Assembly: GCF_025152575.1 (NCBI RefSeq)
Contig: NZ_CP102293.1
Span: 1,612,001 to 1,676,000 of the forward strand
DNA length: 64,000 nucleotides
Source: Subdoligranulum variabile
GTDB lineage: Bacteria; Bacillota; Clostridia; Oscillospirales; Ruminococcaceae
Direction of reading: 5' to 3'
Shown: positions 48,281 through 55,116 of the stretch, piece after piece
Numbering within the stretch: the first letter of the stretch is position 1
Layout: every line of letters begins with the position of its first letter
Position numbers and translations under genes: made by a program
Notes under the pieces: model-generated
What the model was told of the DNA's origin: nothing
The model's input: only the letters and a program-made list of their open reading frames with translations
Databases searched by the model: none

Positions 48281-48316
48281 AACGCCCGCGTCTTTCGGGA
48301 CGCAGGCGTTTTTTTT
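48281..48316 (+). terminator. Terminator after the phosphoesterase gene
   Basis: AACGCCCGCGTC pairs with GACGCAGGCGTT (6-base loop), then eight T. Confidence 0.9.
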
Positions 48317-48504
48317 ATTTTGCAAAAGGGGATGGGGTGTTCATTTTTCCCCGGAAACCGGGTACACTAAATAGCACTTTACGAAAGATTAACTATTAAA
48401 AGTCAACCCCAAAAATGAATGGTGGTGGTGAAAAGAGATAGTTCAAGAAAGGTATAGCAAAGCAGAGGTCCGTAGGGACCCCGGCGTAGGCTAACAAGAT
48501 GGAA

Positions 48505-49686
48505 TTAGGCCGCCAAGCTGCAATAAGGCTGTCTGGATCTTTCCAGGGCAAACAGCAGACGAACTAACTTTTTGGTGGCATGAGAAAGTGCGACATTGTA
48601 GTGTTTGCCTTCATCTCTTTTCTTAGCAAGGTAAGCAGCAAAGGTTGGGTCCCAGTGACATACATACTTGGCTGCGTTGTAAAGAGCGTAGCGTAAGTAT
48701 CGAGAGCCACGCTTCTCCATGTGGGGATAGCAATTTTTGAGCTGCCCGGACTGGTAAGTAGAAGGCGACATTCCGGCGTAGGCCAATAATTTGTCCGGTG
48801 ACTCAAACCGAGAGAAGTCGCCGATTTCAGCAAGAATCATGGCAGCCATACGAAAGCCCATGCCAGGGATAGTTGTAATGGGAGACTGTATCTTGTCCAT
48901 CATTGTCTCAATTTCAGCCTCGATTTCAGCGATCTCAGCATCCAATTCACGGATAAGCCGGATGGTATGTTGCAATTCCAGGGATTTGGCAGGCATACAG
49001 GACCCAACAGAATTCTGAGCAGCGCTCCGGATAGTAACAGCCATATCCCGACCGTAGCGACCTTTGGAGGCGTTCCCCAAAAGGGTTTTGAGCCTTGTCA
49101 GGTGTGCCTTGGCAATCTGTTTGGAACCTGGAAACTCTTCCAGCAGAGCGTAGACAGTCGCCAAATGGAGAGAGGACACCAGCTTCTCCAGTTCAGGGAA
49201 GAGAATGCAAACCAGTCTGGAAATTGAGCTTTTCAGCTTTGCTCGTTCTTTCACCTTGTCAAAACGGTATCTGGTGAGTGACTTTAGTTCCTCGTTGTGA
49301 TATGCTGTATTCGTGTAGGGTTTGAGGCCCACATCGGATAACAGCATAGCAGCAATGGTTCGAGCATCTACACGGTCGGTCTTGGTCTTTCGCAGGCTGA
49401 GACTTTTCCGGTAGAGATTCGTGCGTAAGGGATTCAAGACATAGGTGGCCAGACCGTTGTCCAGAAGAAACCCAAGAATGTTGTAGCTGTAATGCCCGGT
49501 TGCCTCAAGCCCTACTTTTATTTTGTCCTGCGGTGTAGTACAAGCTCGAATTTTTTCCAGTAGAGCATAAAAACCGTCCATGTTGTTAGGGATAGTAAAA
49601 ACATCCGCCAGGACTTCACCCTCTGAGCTTACAATGAAGCAATCATGCTTGTTTTTTGAGACATCAATGCCAACAGAAACTACCAT
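48505..49686 (-). CDS. IS110-family transposase (DEDD recombinase)
   Basis: 393 residues. The start MVVSVGIDVSKNKHDCFIV is preferred because GGAGG lies 7-8 bases before it. The N-terminal RuvC-like DEDD domain (GIDVSKNKHD, GLEATGHYSYN, KTDRVDARTIA) and the C-terminal domain with the catalytic serine (TIPGMGFRMAAMILAEIGDFSRF, YAGMSPSTYQSG) are intact and full length, so the element may be active. The family uses a structured bridge RNA made from non-coding sequence of the element. Confidence 0.95.
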   Translation of the reverse strand: MVVSVGIDVSKNKHDCFIVSSEGEVLADVFTIPNNMDGFYALLEKIRACTTPQDKIKVGLEATGHYSYNILGFLLDNGLATYVLNPLRTNLYRKSLSLRKTKTDRVDARTIAAMLLSDVGLKPYTNTAYHNEELKSLTRYRFDKVKERAKLKSSISRLVCILFPELEKLVSSLHLATVYALLEEFPGSKQIAKAHLTRLKTLLGNASKGRYGRDMAVTIRSAAQNSVGSCMPAKSLELQHTIRLIRELDAEIAEIEAEIETMMDKIQSPITTIPGMGFRMAAMILAEIGDFSRFESPDKLLAYAGMSPSTYQSGQLKNCYPHMEKRGSRYLRYALYNAAKYVCHWDPTFAAYLAKKRDEGKHYNVALSHATKKLVRLLFALERSRQPYCSLAA

Positions 49687-49880
49687 AACAAATACCTCCA
49701 GAGAAAATATGTGATGCTGCATCCACAGTACACCTTACTTTTGTAGCCTTGTTCCACATAAACCGTCTGGCGGTATTTAACTGATTAACAAAATTGTAAG
49801 GGGCTGTGGTTGGAACCTTTCGTGAACCATCTTGTGGTAGGAGCCGCCAACCAATCCACAGCATCCCTTACAGTGTAGCA
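49687..49880 (-). ncRNA. Candidate IS110 bridge RNA region
   Basis: Upstream of the transposase start on the minus strand lies a long imperfect stem-loop at 49796-49871: GTAAGGG pairs with CCCTTAC, and CTGTGG..GGTTGG pairs with CCAACCACAG, leaving a loop of about 30 bases; a second ACCG/CGGT hairpin lies at about 49762-49774. Paired internal loops are the known layout of bridge RNAs in IS110-group elements. Loop guides were not matched to targets. Confidence 0.45.
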
Positions 49881-49940
49881 CAGCCCTTGGAGAGGGGCTC
49901 TAATAACTACTACTCTATAATACAAGGAGCACCCCTGTCC

Positions 49941-50765
49941 ATGACTTTGCAAGCCTATTCCGACTGGATGTAGGCCCGGGAGTACAGCGCCGGGACCATC
50001 GAAAAATATATCCGCGATGTGAGGCGGTTCTTTCACGAGACCCACGCCGCACCGCTGCCCGACAAACAGACCGTCGCCGACTGGCGGGACAGTCTGGTGA
50101 AACGGGGGTATTCGGCCTCCAGCGTCAACGCCATGCTGGCGGCCGTCAACGGCTACCAGGAATGCTGCGGCAATCCCCAGGGCAAGGCCAAGCCTCTCAA
50201 GTGCCAGCACCGGGTCTTCTCCGACGCCGGGCGGGAACTGAGCCGCGCCGAATATTTCCGCCTGCTTCAGGCTGCCCGGGAAACCGGCCGCAAACGCACC
50301 CTGCTGGTGCTGCAGACCCTCTGCGCCACCGGCATCCGGGTGTCGGAACTGGCCTATATCACCGCTGAGGCCGTCCACCGCCGCCGGGCCTCCATCCGCT
50401 GCAAGGGCAAGTGCCGGGACATCCTGCTGCCCGCCCAGCTCTGCAAACGCCTGGAACGCTGGTGCGCCCGCCGCCATATCCATGCGGGCCCCGTCTTCGT
50501 CACCCGCACCGGCCGCCCCCTGGACCGCGTCACCGTCTGGAAAGAAATGAAGGCCCTGTGCAAACGGGCCGGTGTGGCGCGGGAAAAGGTCTTCCCCCAC
50601 AACCTGCGGCACCTGTTTGCCAGGACCTTCTATCATATCGAAAAAAATCTCTCCAAACTGGCGGACCTGCTGGGCCACTCCAGCATCGAGACGACGCGCA
50701 TCTATATCATGGAATCCGGCGCCGAACACCAGCGCCTGCTGGAACAGATGCACCTTTTACTGTAA
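49941..50765 (+). pseudogene. Tyrosine recombinase gene with in-frame amber at codon 11
   Basis: AAGGAGC precedes ATG 49941. The frame reads MTLQAYSDWM, a TAG at 49971-49973, then AREYSAGTIEKYIRDVRRFFHETH without further interruption to 50765 (274 codons). The rest is an XerD-like integrase: ATGIRVSEL with catalytic Arg, HNLRHLFARTF, GHSSIETTRIYIM with the Tyr. A shorter product could start at GTG 50019 but would lose the first helix of the core-binding domain. The amber and the IS110 just upstream suggest decay, unless the codon is read through. Confidence 0.8.
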
Positions 50766-50867
50766 ATACTACAAAAGTACGGTTCTGTTGCAAAGGCTTT
50801 GCTGCGTTTCGGCAAAAAACAGCGAAAAAAAGCTTTTTTTAAATTTCAGGGAAGTTACATAAGAAAA

Positions 50868-50922
50868 GACACACGAAATCTGTCGAGCGTCCTTGCTGGT
50901 TGCTCGACTGATTTCGTGTGTC
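50868..50922. terminator. Bidirectional hairpin inside the inverted-repeat segment
   Basis: GACACACGAAATC-T-GTCGAGC pairs with GCTCGAC-T-GATTTCGTGTGTC around a 13-base loop; CATTTTTGG follows on the plus strand and TTTTC on the minus strand. It would block read-through from the left gene. Confidence 0.75.
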
Positions 50923-50959
50923 CATTTTTGGTAAAACCGACAAAATGGTGCACGACTCC

Positions 50960-50988
50960 TTGCATTTTGGAGGGGCTTGTGCTACCAT
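50960..50988 (+). promoter_or_regulatory. Rightward promoter inside the inverted-repeat segment
   Basis: TTGCAT (50960-50965) and TACCAT (50983-50988), 17-base spacer. In the present orientation it points to the 51102 gene and the surface protein beyond; inversion would turn it toward the first recombinase gene. Confidence 0.55.
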
Positions 50989-51101
50989 AGATACGTGGTT
51001 TTTTGCCGGACAGGCAGAGCCATTCGGTTTCGCCCGCCAGAAGAGCGGGCCTTTGCAACAGAACCGTACTTTTGTTGGAGGCAGGCAGAAAGGGAGTAAC
51101 C

Positions 51102-51908
51102 GTGGAAGACAAAAAGGAAATTTTGCCAGGCTACCCGATTGAACAATACCTGCAGGAAAAAAAAGAAACCGACTGGAATGCAGAAACACGTGCCAGCTAC
51201 CGGCGCATCCTGTATGAACTGCAGGCCTACCTGGAATCCGATGGACCGGCCGATGCGGCGGCGCTCCGGCGCTGGCAGCAGAATCTGCGCGACGCCGGCT
51301 ATCGCCAGCAAAGTATCAACATCCGCATCTCGGCGGCCAACAACTATTTCCGCTGGTGCGGACGGTATGATCTGCTCATGCACCACCAGAGCGAACCTGC
51401 AGCCCCCACACCGGAACTGACCCGGGCGGAATATCTCCGCCTGCTGCGCGCGGCCAGAAAACACGGCTGGCATCAGCTGTACCTCCTGGTCAAGCTGTTC
51501 GCCGTGACCGGGCTGCCGCTGCAGTGCCTTGACCAGGTCACCCCGCAGATCGTCCAGGCGGGCAGCGCACTGCTTCCCTGGCGCAGCGGCCGCTTCTCCT
51601 TCAGGCTGCCGGAATCCCTGCGCCGGGAACTGCTGGACTATATCGCGGAAAACGCCATCACCGCCGGACCGGTCTTCGTCACCCGGAGCGGAAAACCCAT
51701 CAACCGCTCCAACCTCTGCCGCAAAATGCAGGAACTCTGCCGGGAGGCAGGTGTCCCGGAGGAAAAGGGCAGCCCCCGCTGCCTGCGCAATCTCTGCCGC
51801 GCCACCCAGGACAATCTGTATGCCAGTCTGGAACAGCAGCTGCAGCAGGTGTACGATATGCTGCTGCAGGCGGAACAGGAATCCGTCGGCTGGCTTGCCG
51901 GAGCCTGA
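51102..51908 (+). CDS. Tyrosine recombinase-like protein lacking catalytic residues
   Basis: 268 residues from a GTG behind AAGGGAG. The SAM-like core-binding domain (about 1-95) and a recombinase-like domain align with the neighbour at 49941. Where active enzymes have Arg in TGxRxxEL this protein has TGLPLQCL; box II reads RCLRNLCRAT instead of HxLRHxxAT, and the GHSS segment is missing, though a Tyr remains in QVYDML. It therefore cannot be a normal recombinase. A regulatory partner or recombination directionality role is possible. It lies 85 bases before the surface protein gene. Confidence 0.8.
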   Translation: MEDKKEILPGYPIEQYLQEKKETDWNAETRASYRRILYELQAYLESDGPADAAALRRWQQNLRDAGYRQQSINIRISAANNYFRWCGRYDLLMHHQSEPAAPTPELTRAEYLRLLRAARKHGWHQLYLLVKLFAVTGLPLQCLDQVTPQIVQAGSALLPWRSGRFSFRLPESLRRELLDYIAENAITAGPVFVTRSGKPINRSNLCRKMQELCREAGVPEEKGSPRCLRNLCRATQDNLYASLEQQLQQVYDMLLQAEQESVGWLAGA

Positions 51909-51993
51909 ACGCCCCGTTATTTTACTGGAACATTCGAACTTAACGGATGTGCCGATATAGAGTCGTTATTATTTTAAAGGAGGAATTATCAAA

Positions 51994-54900
51994 ATGCGAA
52001 CAGTCAGAACAGGCTTTCGCCGCATCATCGCAATGATATGCGCACTGGCATTGTGCGCTGGCATGCTGCCCTTTGCGGCTTTTGCAGAGGATCCAGAAAA
52101 TGACGGGTCCGGTTCAACGGGTTCCGCGACGACGGAGAAAACACCGGGGGAAATCCCTCCCTCCGCCGGAGTAGAATTACTTGGTGGAACACCAAGAAAC
52201 CTGGGAAATTATAAGGTTATTGTACAGGCGGTTATCCGCGACGAATCCGGCGGTTGGGTTAGTACAAATGCCCTGCCCAGCAAATTTTTCAATGGGACCA
52301 CTGCGGGAGGATCTTCCGGAGACGCTGGAAGTTCCGGTTCCTGGCAATGGACGGCGCAGGATGGAGGGTATACTTTAACAGGTCAGTTTGACTCCCATGC
52401 TAATGTGTGGGGAAACTTGAAGTATCCCACCTCCTTATGGAATTATGATACCGATGAGCTTCAGTTTATGGGAATCGGTAAGAACTCCTATTCTACAGAG
52501 GTCGCTTATTCTGACGATGTAGACTCGTCCTTCCTTTTTGAGAGAAATTCGTACCCGTTAGGTGTGGCATCCGGCACGGAATGGAGAACCTATATCTTCC
52601 AGCAAAAAGGGCCCTCGGCTCCCGCTATCCCGGACCCAACGCCGGATGATTTGGACAATCTGGGTGAAATCGTCAATATTATCTGTACCACCAACACTGC
52701 TCAGCATCCCACGATCACCAGCGAAGTGATCGGCAGTAAAGATATAGACTATACTATCACACATGAAGAAAATGCGGCCACGGCCACAGTTACCATCATC
52801 AATGCGGACCTTTATGTGGCAAAATATAACGAGACGTATGTAGACCATACGCTGGACAATGATACTACCGCAGATTTGACCATAGGTCTCGTGTATGACG
52901 ACGATACGAAACAGTGGACGGTGGCTTCTGACAACGGTACAGCTACAGTGTATGTCAAATGTACGACTACGCCTGTCACACCTCCGCTGCCCGATGGCGA
53001 AATCCTGAAAAGCATTCTGGGAAATGCCATTAAAGTGGAGTGTGCCACCGAAAACAGTGGGCATGACCCCATTGTCACGGGACTGTTGGGGGATAAGGAT
53101 ACCGACTATACCGTGACACAGTCCGGCAATACGGCCACCGTTACCATCACCGTAACCGATCCTTATGTGGCAAAGTATAACGAGGAGTATGCCGGACATA
53201 CCTTGGGGGAGAACTCCGATCTGACCATCGGCCTCGTCTATGACGGAGGCAACTGGGTTCTGGATCCCAATAACAACACCGCTACGGTATACGTCCAGTG
53301 CACTGTGCCGTCCAACATTCCCGATCCCACGAATGAGGATGTACGGGATGCGCTGAATGGGGCAGGCAACATCGTCAGCATCGAGTGCACCAACAACAGC
53401 GCCCATGAGCCCGTCACCAGCGGGCTGCGCGGTGCCGCACCCAAGGACTACATCATTACCCACGAACCCGACGCCGCTACGGCAACCATCACCATTCAGA
53501 ATACCGGCGTTTATCTTACTACATACAACAAGGCCTATCCCGGCCATGTCTTGGATGAGGGGTCTGACCTGGTGCTGGGCCTCATTTATGAAGGCGGCGC
53601 CTGGAAGCTGAATCCGGAGGACAACACCGCCACGATCTATGTGACCTGCCCGGATATCGTGGTGACGCCCGCCAGCATGGTCATCTACAAAGGTGGCGAA
53701 ACAAACACCACCGACAGCAATGTGGAAATTGTGGGGGCCGACGGAAATCCCATCACCAATGCGGACGGTTCTCTGCCGGAGATCGGCTTCTATCTGGAAC
53801 TGTCGGATGAATTGAACGCCGAGCTGCGCAGCAAACTGAATGTGCCGGAGGATGAGGTGCTGAACCTATCCGATCTCGTTACTCTTACGGCCGATGTGCA
53901 GGGCAGCTCCGGCGAGACCCTTTCCTGGAAACTGGAAAAATACAGCGACGGCAACGGATCCAGCTCCACGGTGGAAAGCAAAAACGGACGGTATATCTAC
54001 AAGATCGTTCCGGAAACCCCCGGAAGCGGAACGAAACTGAAGGTGTCTTTCTATACCGAAACGGAGACGACAGGCCAGAAAAACTATGTGAACAGCGATA
54101 ATTTTGCCCTGACGGATTCTCTTTCGGAAACCTACCAGATGGAAATCTACGGCGACCGCGTGGATGCCGCTACCCTGAAAGCGACCATCGAAATCAACGG
54201 GGAGGAACAGACCATCGGTGTCAAGGGATCTGACACGCCGGCTACCCTGACGGTCCGCTATGTGGTGGGTGCTCAGGATGCCGTGGTGACCCCGTCCTAT
54301 GACACCATTGTGCATGCTTCCGAGGTGGATGATCCCAATCAGGATGCGCTGAAAAAGGCCTATGTGATCCGCAGCAACGGTACGCAGCCTGCCGTGGATG
54401 ACTTCATGGTCAATGAGAGCAATGTCCAGGTGGCGGCATCGGATGTCTCGCTGCTGGCTGATGCCATTGCGGATACGGTCGGCACCACCTTCGAAGAAAC
54501 TCTGAAGTCAAAAGCCGGCAAGGAAGTGGCCTCGAAGTTCCAGTTGAAGGAAGCCAACCTGCAAAGCCAGGCACAGTATCTGGACTTGGTGGATGCCACC
54601 AACGGCAACGCCTGGGTGACCACCGAGCAGGATGTTACCATCTATCTGCCCTTCCCCAAGGAAACCGACGCCAACACAACCTTCTATCTGGCGCACTTTG
54701 ATGGCCTTGACCGCAACACCTCTGTGGATGCTATGGAAGCTGCGGTAGAGAGCAAGGTGCCGACGGTTACCAAAGTGGCTGCCGACCAGTACGGTGTTTA
54801 TTTCGAGGCCAGTGATTTCTCGCCCTACGTGCTGGTGTGGGATACCACCAAGACCCAGCCCACCACGCCGGATGACGATAACGACGACGATAACAATAAC

Positions 54901-55116
54901 GACAACAACAACGCTACTACCACCAACAACAACAATACCAGCACCACCAATGTCAGCGTGAACAATAACGCGGCAGCGGCAGCGCCTGCGGCCACGGCGG
55001 CCATCCCGCAGACCGGCGACGCAATGCCCGTTGGCCTGCTGGGCGGTGTGGCGGTTGTTGCGGCGGCAGCCTTCGCGGCACTCTTCGTGCTGCGCAAGCG
55101 CAAGCACAATGACTGA
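51994..55116 (+). CDS. Sortase-anchored surface protein with three repeats
   Basis: 1040 residues, AAAGGAGG upstream. The signal peptide ends AFAAFA/E region near residue 31. Three related domains of about 110 residues (about 213-330, 331-439, 440-556) share TxIVxIxCTxxxxHxPxxxxG, DYxITxxxxxATATxTI and YVAKYNxxYxxHTL. A Ser/Asn/Asp-rich linker (DDDNDDDNNNDNNN) leads to IPQTG, a hydrophobic helix and RKRKHND, a complete LPxTG-class wall anchor. Likely role is adhesion or surface interaction. A terminator follows at 55148. It is less GC-rich than its neighbours. Confidence 0.88.
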   Translation: MRTVRTGFRRIIAMICALALCAGMLPFAAFAEDPENDGSGSTGSATTEKTPGEIPPSAGVELLGGTPRNLGNYKVIVQAVIRDESGGWVSTNALPSKFFNGTTAGGSSGDAGSSGSWQWTAQDGGYTLTGQFDSHANVWGNLKYPTSLWNYDTDELQFMGIGKNSYSTEVAYSDDVDSSFLFERNSYPLGVASGTEWRTYIFQQKGPSAPAIPDPTPDDLDNLGEIVNIICTTNTAQHPTITSEVIGSKDIDYTITHEENAATATVTIINADLYVAKYNETYVDHTLDNDTTADLTIGLVYDDDTKQWTVASDNGTATVYVKCTTTPVTPPLPDGEILKSILGNAIKVECATENSGHDPIVTGLLGDKDTDYTVTQSGNTATVTITVTDPYVAKYNEEYAGHTLGENSDLTIGLVYDGGNWVLDPNNNTATVYVQCTVPSNIPDPTNEDVRDALNGAGNIVSIECTNNSAHEPVTSGLRGAAPKDYIITHEPDAATATITIQNTGVYLTTYNKAYPGHVLDEGSDLVLGLIYEGGAWKLNPEDNTATIYVTCPDIVVTPASMVIYKGGETNTTDSNVEIVGADGNPITNADGSLPEIGFYLELSDELNAELRSKLNVPEDEVLNLSDLVTLTADVQGSSGETLSWKLEKYSDGNGSSSTVESKNGRYIYKIVPETPGSGTKLKVSFYTETETTGQKNYVNSDNFALTDSLSETYQMEIYGDRVDAATLKATIEINGEEQTIGVKGSDTPATLTVRYVVGAQDAVVTPSYDTIVHASEVDDPNQDALKKAYVIRSNGTQPAVDDFMVNESNVQVAASDVSLLADAIADTVGTTFEETLKSKAGKEVASKFQLKEANLQSQAQYLDLVDATNGNAWVTTEQDVTIYLPFPKETDANTTFYLAHFDGLDRNTSVDAMEAAVESKVPTVTKVAADQYGVYFEASDFSPYVLVWDTTKTQPTTPDDDNDDDNNNDNNNATTTNNNNTSTTNVSVNNNAAAAAPAATAAIPQTGDAMPVGLLGGVAVVAAAAFAALFVLRKRKHND
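52630..53658 (+). repeat. Three tandem coding repeats in the surface protein
   Basis: Three units of about 340 bases at roughly 52630, 52984 and 53311, diverged at the DNA level but aligned at the protein level. Confidence 0.75.

Follow-up and report, generated by a model that had tools for sequence, protein, structure and literature searches.

A predicted invertible promoter module of gut Clostridia, followed in Subdoligranulum variabile by a gene for a non-catalytic recombinase homologue

Introduction

Between a gene for an Xer-like tyrosine recombinase (gene A) and a second recombinase-like gene (gene B) that precedes a surface protein gene, the genome of Subdoligranulum variabile (RefSeq assembly GCF_025152575.1, contig NZ_CP102293.1) carries a short element with perfect inverted repeats at its ends. 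Is this element a phase-variation switch, can it still turn in this strain, and what might a second recombinase homologue be doing downstream of it? Invertible promoters beside tyrosine recombinases are already known, Clostridia included, and an initial annotation made from the letters alone had read the element as such a promoter, set between two recombinase genes. Here, we follow up this reading within the 64,000 nucleotides from position 1,612,001 to 1,676,000 of the contig, hereafter the window, and compare the locus with related loci of the genus Gemmiger, its family and its order. Positions refer to the window unless stated otherwise, and loci are given by their L numbers where they have to be told apart.

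Results

Parts of the element

The features of the locus, with their strand, are the following:

49941–50765, plus: gene A, Xer-like tyrosine recombinase and candidate invertase (PF00589, E 3e-26)
50771–50797, plus: left inverted repeat, 27 nt, with the recombination-site variant ACAAAA-GTACGG-TTCTGT of the type ACATAA-N6-TTATGT
50798–51048, no strand: predicted invertible segment, 251 nt; inversion between orthologous loci is known from L172/L184
50861–50929, no strand: hairpin with T-rich tails on both strands (arms 50861–50888 and 50902–50929), a probable bidirectional terminator
50960–50988, plus: promoter, −35 TTGCAT (50960–50965), 17-nt spacer ending in TGTGC, −10 TACCAT (50983–50988)
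51049–51075, minus: right inverted repeat, exact reverse complement of the left arm
51102–51908, plus: gene B, recombinase homologue without catalytic residues, first gene past the right repeat, with an RBS-like AGGGAG at 51091–51096
51994–55116, plus: surface protein of 1040 aa with a signal-peptide-like start, the sortase anchor IPQTG, a hydrophobic stretch and the tail RKRKHND

The whole element (50771–51075) measures 305 bp. Its arms are 100% complementary and enclose 251 nt, exactly as initially annotated, and in the window they form the longest inverted repeat at a spacing of up to 1 kb; none of 20 dinucleotide shuffles gave one of more than 15 nt. The proposed bidirectional terminator was likewise recovered as a hairpin on both strands (−39.4 kcal/mol, z −8.65, on the plus strand; −37.9 kcal/mol, z −9.16, on the minus strand), with T-rich stretches after the stem either way. 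In a simple scan, hairpins with a score of at least 12 were present in 33 of the 52 segments of the sister loci vs 5 of 52 shuffled ones. Searches against Rfam families gave no match in 48300–52100.

A single rightward promoter had also been claimed, and TTGCAT-17-TACCAT at 50960–50988 agrees with this. It is weak compared with the plain consensus, and a simple consensus scan of the window reported neither this promoter nor a terminator inside the element; the assignment rests on the comparison with sister loci described below. As sequenced, the promoter points rightward, towards gene B and the surface protein, an orientation that we call ON. The annotation of the latter as an LPxTG-type protein was borne out by the NCBIfam model LPXTG_anchor (TIGR01167; 19.2 bits, cut-off 15.9), and the score against the Pfam anchor PF00746 (18.9) fell slightly under its cut-off of 20.

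Recurrence across the order

Recombinase A, inverted repeat and promoter segment were found together repeatedly across the order. Alignment searches, in which the best few candidates of each genome were scored, placed A (E ≤ 1e-60) in at least 70 of 297 genomes of the family (46 of 126 genera) and in at least 110 of 394 genomes of the order (74 of 169 genera). The closest models and solved relatives of A are XerA, XerD and XerC, all with scores under the NCBIfam cut-offs. The catalytic residues R-K-H-R-H-Y are present in gene A of the window and complete in all 40 A sequences checked.

For detailed comparison we used 64 A-locus rows, 19 from Gemmiger and 45 from other genera, which represent 63 loci as L143 is the same as L165; the 45 non-Gemmiger rows comprise 44 of the 88 non-Gemmiger places in the family listing, mostly the top-scoring ones. 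Left aside were Gemmiger contigs that break at the element (L045/L046, L055/L056, L061/L062, L066) and two Gemmiger loci, L047 and L059, in which B occurs with no A. In 52 of the 64 rows we found a perfect inverted repeat no shorter than 13 nt (repeat lengths 13–29 nt, enclosing 184–317 nt), which started between −10 and +51 nt relative to the stop of A in 51 of them, L068 being at +144. No such repeat was found in the remaining 12 rows, among which contigs end 16–495 nt past A (L158, L170, L171, L176, L178) or repeats are imperfect or absent (L071, L137, L138, L140, L143/L165, L182). Viral contigs yielded no match to the recombination site and no relative of B among 10 candidates.

Repeats as recombination sites

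The arms in many loci of other genera read ACATAA-N6-TTATGT, which we take to resemble the dif sites of XerC/D, and Gemmiger carries variants such as ACAAAA-GTACGG-TTCTGT. We picked site pairs solely on their 12 flanking positions, which yielded a pair in 57 of the 64 rows, and then compared the 6-nt centres. Of the 57 pairs, 46 had identical centres when read in the inverted sense and none when read in the direct sense; a control inside the coding sequence of A gave 12 pairs, none with identical centres. Several of the 11 pairs with non-identical centres are mis-picked sites. From locus to locus the centres vary, and this combination, matching within a locus and differing between loci, is what is predicted for a strand-exchange region that needs identity between its two partners.

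Both orientations among related loci

We scanned 57 segments, 52 bounded by exact repeats and five taken as fixed windows after A, for the promoter pattern TTG-N17-TG-N-TA-N3-T, a form fixed after inspection of the Gemmiger sequences. The pattern occurred on exactly one strand in 45 segments and on both strands in none, vs 17 occurrences in 1140 shuffled segments. It faced A (OFF) in 33 segments and away from A (ON) in 12. Both orientations were found within Gemmiger (11 OFF, 6 ON, 2 without the pattern, L067 among the latter) and outside it (22 OFF, 6 ON, 10 without), where 28 of 38 segments had a match on one strand. A looser pattern with the TG dropped gave 37 OFF, 13 ON, 4 on both strands and 3 on none of the 57, at a background of 222 in 1140 shuffles. 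The promoter classifier used initially had called 22 segments OFF and 6 ON and had left 24 of 52 undecided (61 of 1040 mononucleotide shuffles called).

Segment alignments point the same way. At E ≤ 1e-6, 21 pairs aligned in a sense consistent with their ON/OFF calls, 19 of them via the strict pattern and two, L156/L163 and L172/L184, via the looser one; the window and L050 aligned in inverted sense, as did L064 and L065. A further L048/L049 row arises from a self-match of the hairpin. Most telling are L172 and L184, which belong to two species of one other genus: their A genes are 90% identical and the 4 kb downstream 87%, in the same sense, and the sole match reported for the intervening segment runs in inverted sense (74.6% over 287 nt), at an identity (75%) below that of the flanks.

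In three genomes (G009, G033, G023), one contig with A and one with B each break off at the element or no more than about 50 nt from it, assuming a single locus in each, and the contigs of L158 and L176 stop 16 nt past the stop of A. Such ends would be expected from the assembly of mixed orientations, or from any repeat.

Two further observations concern the OFF state. It exceeds ON by 33 to 12 in the deposited genomes, perhaps because being ON carries a cost for cells in culture or in the gut. Moreover, the OFF promoter aims into the 3′ end of gene A (e.g., L048, L057, L160), where it could give rise to an antisense RNA to the recombinase.

Given the parts and their conservation, the two orientations observed across loci and the inverted orthologous segment observed in another genus, we consider it very probable from sequence comparison that the 305-bp element is a site-specific invertible promoter module. 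The initial reading as a phase-variation switch is thus favored by the matching repeat centres, by the confinement of the promoter pattern to one strand and by the inversion between L172 and L184.

Gene B, a recombinase homologue without catalytic residues

The profiles of A and B aligned over 228 columns (probability 100, E 1.6e-42), with TGLPLQCL in B at the place of TGIRVSEL in A and PRxLR in B at that of PHNLR in A. By itself, B of the window matched just an N-terminal SAM-like domain (PF02899, E 4.3e-5). Neither the catalytic tyrosine nor the GH box is present in any of 28 B sequences, and the first arginine is absent from 27, with L144 as the exception; in B of L051 a histidine occupies the GH-box column, the box itself being absent. 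Hence, the idea of two recombinase genes flanking the element survives for the left gene, which has the PF00589 domain and the catalytic residues despite a TAG that interrupts it, and has to be given up for the right one. When a protein database was searched with the profile of B, 1243 of the 8000 candidates scored reached E ≤ 1e-20, a number that will include A-type enzymes; among the best 120 of these 1243, none had the R1, HxLRH or GH box.

In one FastTree run, A was split from B plus C with a local support of 0.999, which argues that B is old; a grouping of B without C received just 0.108 in the same tree. C denotes a third recombinase-like gene, likewise devoid of catalytic residues, that lies between B and the surface protein gene in L064 (G027:C1, 10262–10942).

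B is less widespread than A. A query with B matched 25 of 35 genomes of the genus, the weak matches being A-type genes, and places of B type (at least 47% identity) remained in 13 of the 35. Within the order, B-type genes were present at E ≤ 1e-52 in 8 of 394 genomes and A at E ≤ 1e-60 in at least 110; most A-type switches are therefore probably devoid of B. B is an optional part of the switch that is frequent in Gemmiger, where it usually starts immediately past the right repeat. For 17 B loci of Gemmiger the sequence read extended 2 kb or more beyond B, and from the translations we found an anchored surface protein next to B or within 2 kb in 13; none was found in the listed reading frames after B in L052 and L045, and L059 and L065 could not be decided from the translations. 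Neither A nor a repeat was found upstream of B in L047 and L059.

Outside Gemmiger, the switch is followed by B and then by glycosyltransferase-like genes in L137, L138 and L140, a layout that suggests phase-variable polysaccharide in other genera. Two loci of G581 (L195 and L196; C1 and C11) have A, a repeat, an OFF promoter and a gene for a large protein of 1605 aa or about 3100 aa with a signal-peptide-like start, and B comes last, at the end of the switched stretch. Among ten B stretches from two other families (L185–L194), A lies directly upstream in four (L185–L188; 2 ON, 2 OFF) and upstream with about 2 kb between in L193; L190 and L191 are the G581 loci, whose A lay beyond the part first fetched. 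In L189, L192, L194 and L139, A was not seen in the stretch fetched upstream of B or its relatives. The output genes vary as well: judging by their translations, with no database matches behind the names, they encode anchored proteins in L050, L146, L164, L175 and others, and those listed also include SipW-like genes and regulator-like (L172, L184), transporter-like (L173, L174) and chemoreceptor-like (L159) products.

State of the switch in this genome and alternative readings

In the window, gene A contains an in-frame TAG at 49971–49973, after 10 codons, and its reading frame is open from a GTG at 50019 to the stop. Relatives carry open A genes. The sole close paralogue in the genome (genome positions 1333145–1333952, L070) is split over two frames; at its locus, the repeat measures 26 nt, the promoter is OFF, B is absent and the anchored protein is 1430 aa long. 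With gene A and its only close paralogue both interrupted, switching in this strain is doubtful, and the recombinase initially annotated beside the switch is there with its catalytic domain, yet broken. The element may be either locked ON or served in trans. It is quite possible, if somewhat short of probable, that a formerly invertible promoter is now fixed as an ordinary one in the ON state, especially as A is also in two frames in L060, L063 and L070, which makes four broken Gemmiger loci with the window (window and L060 ON, L063 ON by the looser pattern alone, L070 OFF; too few for a test). Against such a locked state, the 27-nt arms have not diverged from one another, suggesting recent exchange or selection, a different recombinase could work in trans, and the TAG could be an assembly error. 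A lock in this strain is compatible with an invertible promoter as the explanation for the family. Quite another origin, an IS6-derived mini-element (MITE) with the repeats as insertion-sequence ends, would place the same ends and inner sequence at unrelated sites. The arms contain GGTTCTGTTGCAAAG, which we take to resemble the ends of IS6-family elements; however, the element is located after gene A in other species too, and the half-site that reads TTATGTTG in other genera occurs here in the variant TTCTGTTGC. As the full element occurs once in the genome, a single contig of 3.24 Mb, and an 8-bp target duplication is absent at either possible boundary (TAAATACT/TGGAGGCA; AAAAGTAC/GTACTTTT), we rejected this origin as highly improbable. 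Just upstream of gene A lies an IS110-family transposase gene on the minus strand (48505–49722; PF01548, PF02371), by which A's own promoter may have been displaced.

For B, three readings compete. It could be a decaying duplicate of A carried along in the operon without a function, given that all catalytic boxes are lost and that it evolves faster than A: identities to the first sequence range from 47 to 68% for B and from 52 to 86% for A, and nine of the 12 closest B pairs (136 pairs in total) have dN/dS values of 0.49–0.84, compared with 0.12–0.44 for the 12 closest A pairs (91 in total). We regard this as improbable, however, because the B frame is open in all 16 aligned loci, the three closest B pairs have values of 0.20, 0.11 and 0.34, the split from A is old, the boxes are missing from all of the 120 closest relatives listed, and in another genus, too, B belongs to the output operon, as its last gene. 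Sequence comparison thus depicts B as an old non-catalytic relative, faster-evolving than A yet kept open. A function unrelated to inversion, as a regulator or structural partner of the switched operon (e.g., a DNA-binding transcription factor), appears rather unlikely. It would fit the N-terminal SAM-like domain kept in B of the window, the six loci without a visible A upstream of B or its relatives (L047, L059, L139, L189, L192, L194) and the ipuS operon, which begins with a gene for a predicted LuxR-type regulator according to the available part of that report (PMC6083910). Its targets would then have to vary widely, from Gemmiger surface proteins to the glycosyltransferase-like genes of L137/L138/L140 and the very large surface-type proteins of G581, and the common denominator of these outputs is the switch. 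We tentatively favor a third reading: B may be a catalytically dead subunit, produced only in the ON state, that latches, resets or biases its own switch by binding either the sites or the active recombinase.

Discussion

We propose that two identical 18-bp sites in opposite orientation, each consisting of two half-sites and a 6-bp centre, enclose the terminator hairpin and the promoter, and that a tyrosine recombinase of the gene A type would recombine them, so that the segment flips. In the ON orientation the promoter would transcribe gene B first and the gene of the sortase-anchored surface protein next, presumably on a single transcript; in the OFF orientation it would point back to gene A and leave the output operon silent. 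The hairpin would shield this operon from gene A in either orientation. By binding the sites or A, the B protein may feed back on the switch.

In its plan the module resembles systems known from other bacteria. Jiang et al. 2019 reportedly described invertible promoters of gut bacteria, in which a promoter lies between inverted repeats upstream of surface genes, and by description the promoter here is placed in the same way, within inverted repeats upstream of a surface gene. RecV of Clostridioides difficile serves several distant switches, unlike the recombinases here, the genes of which lie directly beside most switches examined. The likeness to the RecV-type switches cwpV and flg lies in inversion with a site-specific recombinase, which makes a cell-wall protein or flagella phase-variable, as far as the available parts of the reports describe (PMC2784873, PMC7446863).

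Closer still is inverton group 139, described in the portion of PMC11892184 available to us as 33 invertons, 32 of them from Clostridia and nearly all near a tyrosine-type recombinase of invertase group 35. Two examples quoted there have segments of about 205–228 nt, and both orientations were measured in culture reads, with shifts between them (PMC11892184). Likened by description, this group and the switch studied here are probably of the same kind and may be of the same family. The same portion also cites six repeat motifs of Jiang et al. 2019 and states that invertases near invertons are generally not under the inverton promoter, with group 145 as a possible exception (PMC11892184); in contrast to those invertases, the homologue under the switch promoter here is a dead one.

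In Escherichia coli, ipuS is a promoter segment of 260 bp beside a tyrosine recombinase gene, and its operon encodes a regulator first and a surface protein second (PMC6083910, in the part available). The order of recombinase, invertible promoter, regulator there or B here, and surface protein is thus shared. The repeats of ipuS, fimS and hyxS measure 7–16 bp according to the same excerpt, vs 13–29 nt in the A loci, and a dead recombinase in the output operon, as represented here by B, does not appear in what that excerpt says of the three switches (PMC6083910).

Our literature search, which covered few subscription papers, returned no Gemmiger switch, no dead recombinase in a switched operon and no paper combining DNA inversion, phase variation and Gemmiger. 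The module is known in kind and new in detail, with gene B as its open and interesting part; what looks like a new variant is the conserved dead recombinase inside the output operon.

These results define by sequence a family of promoter switches that extends across an order of gut Clostridia, the ON or OFF state of which is readable from DNA and which would control surface products, sortase-anchored ones among them. Metagenome reads could then reveal the state of Gemmiger surface proteins. Within the switched operon, the conserved dead recombinase offers a ready candidate for feedback control of inversion, and if the reading of B as a subunit acting on its own switch is true, the module would be a self-sensing invertible promoter in gut Clostridia.
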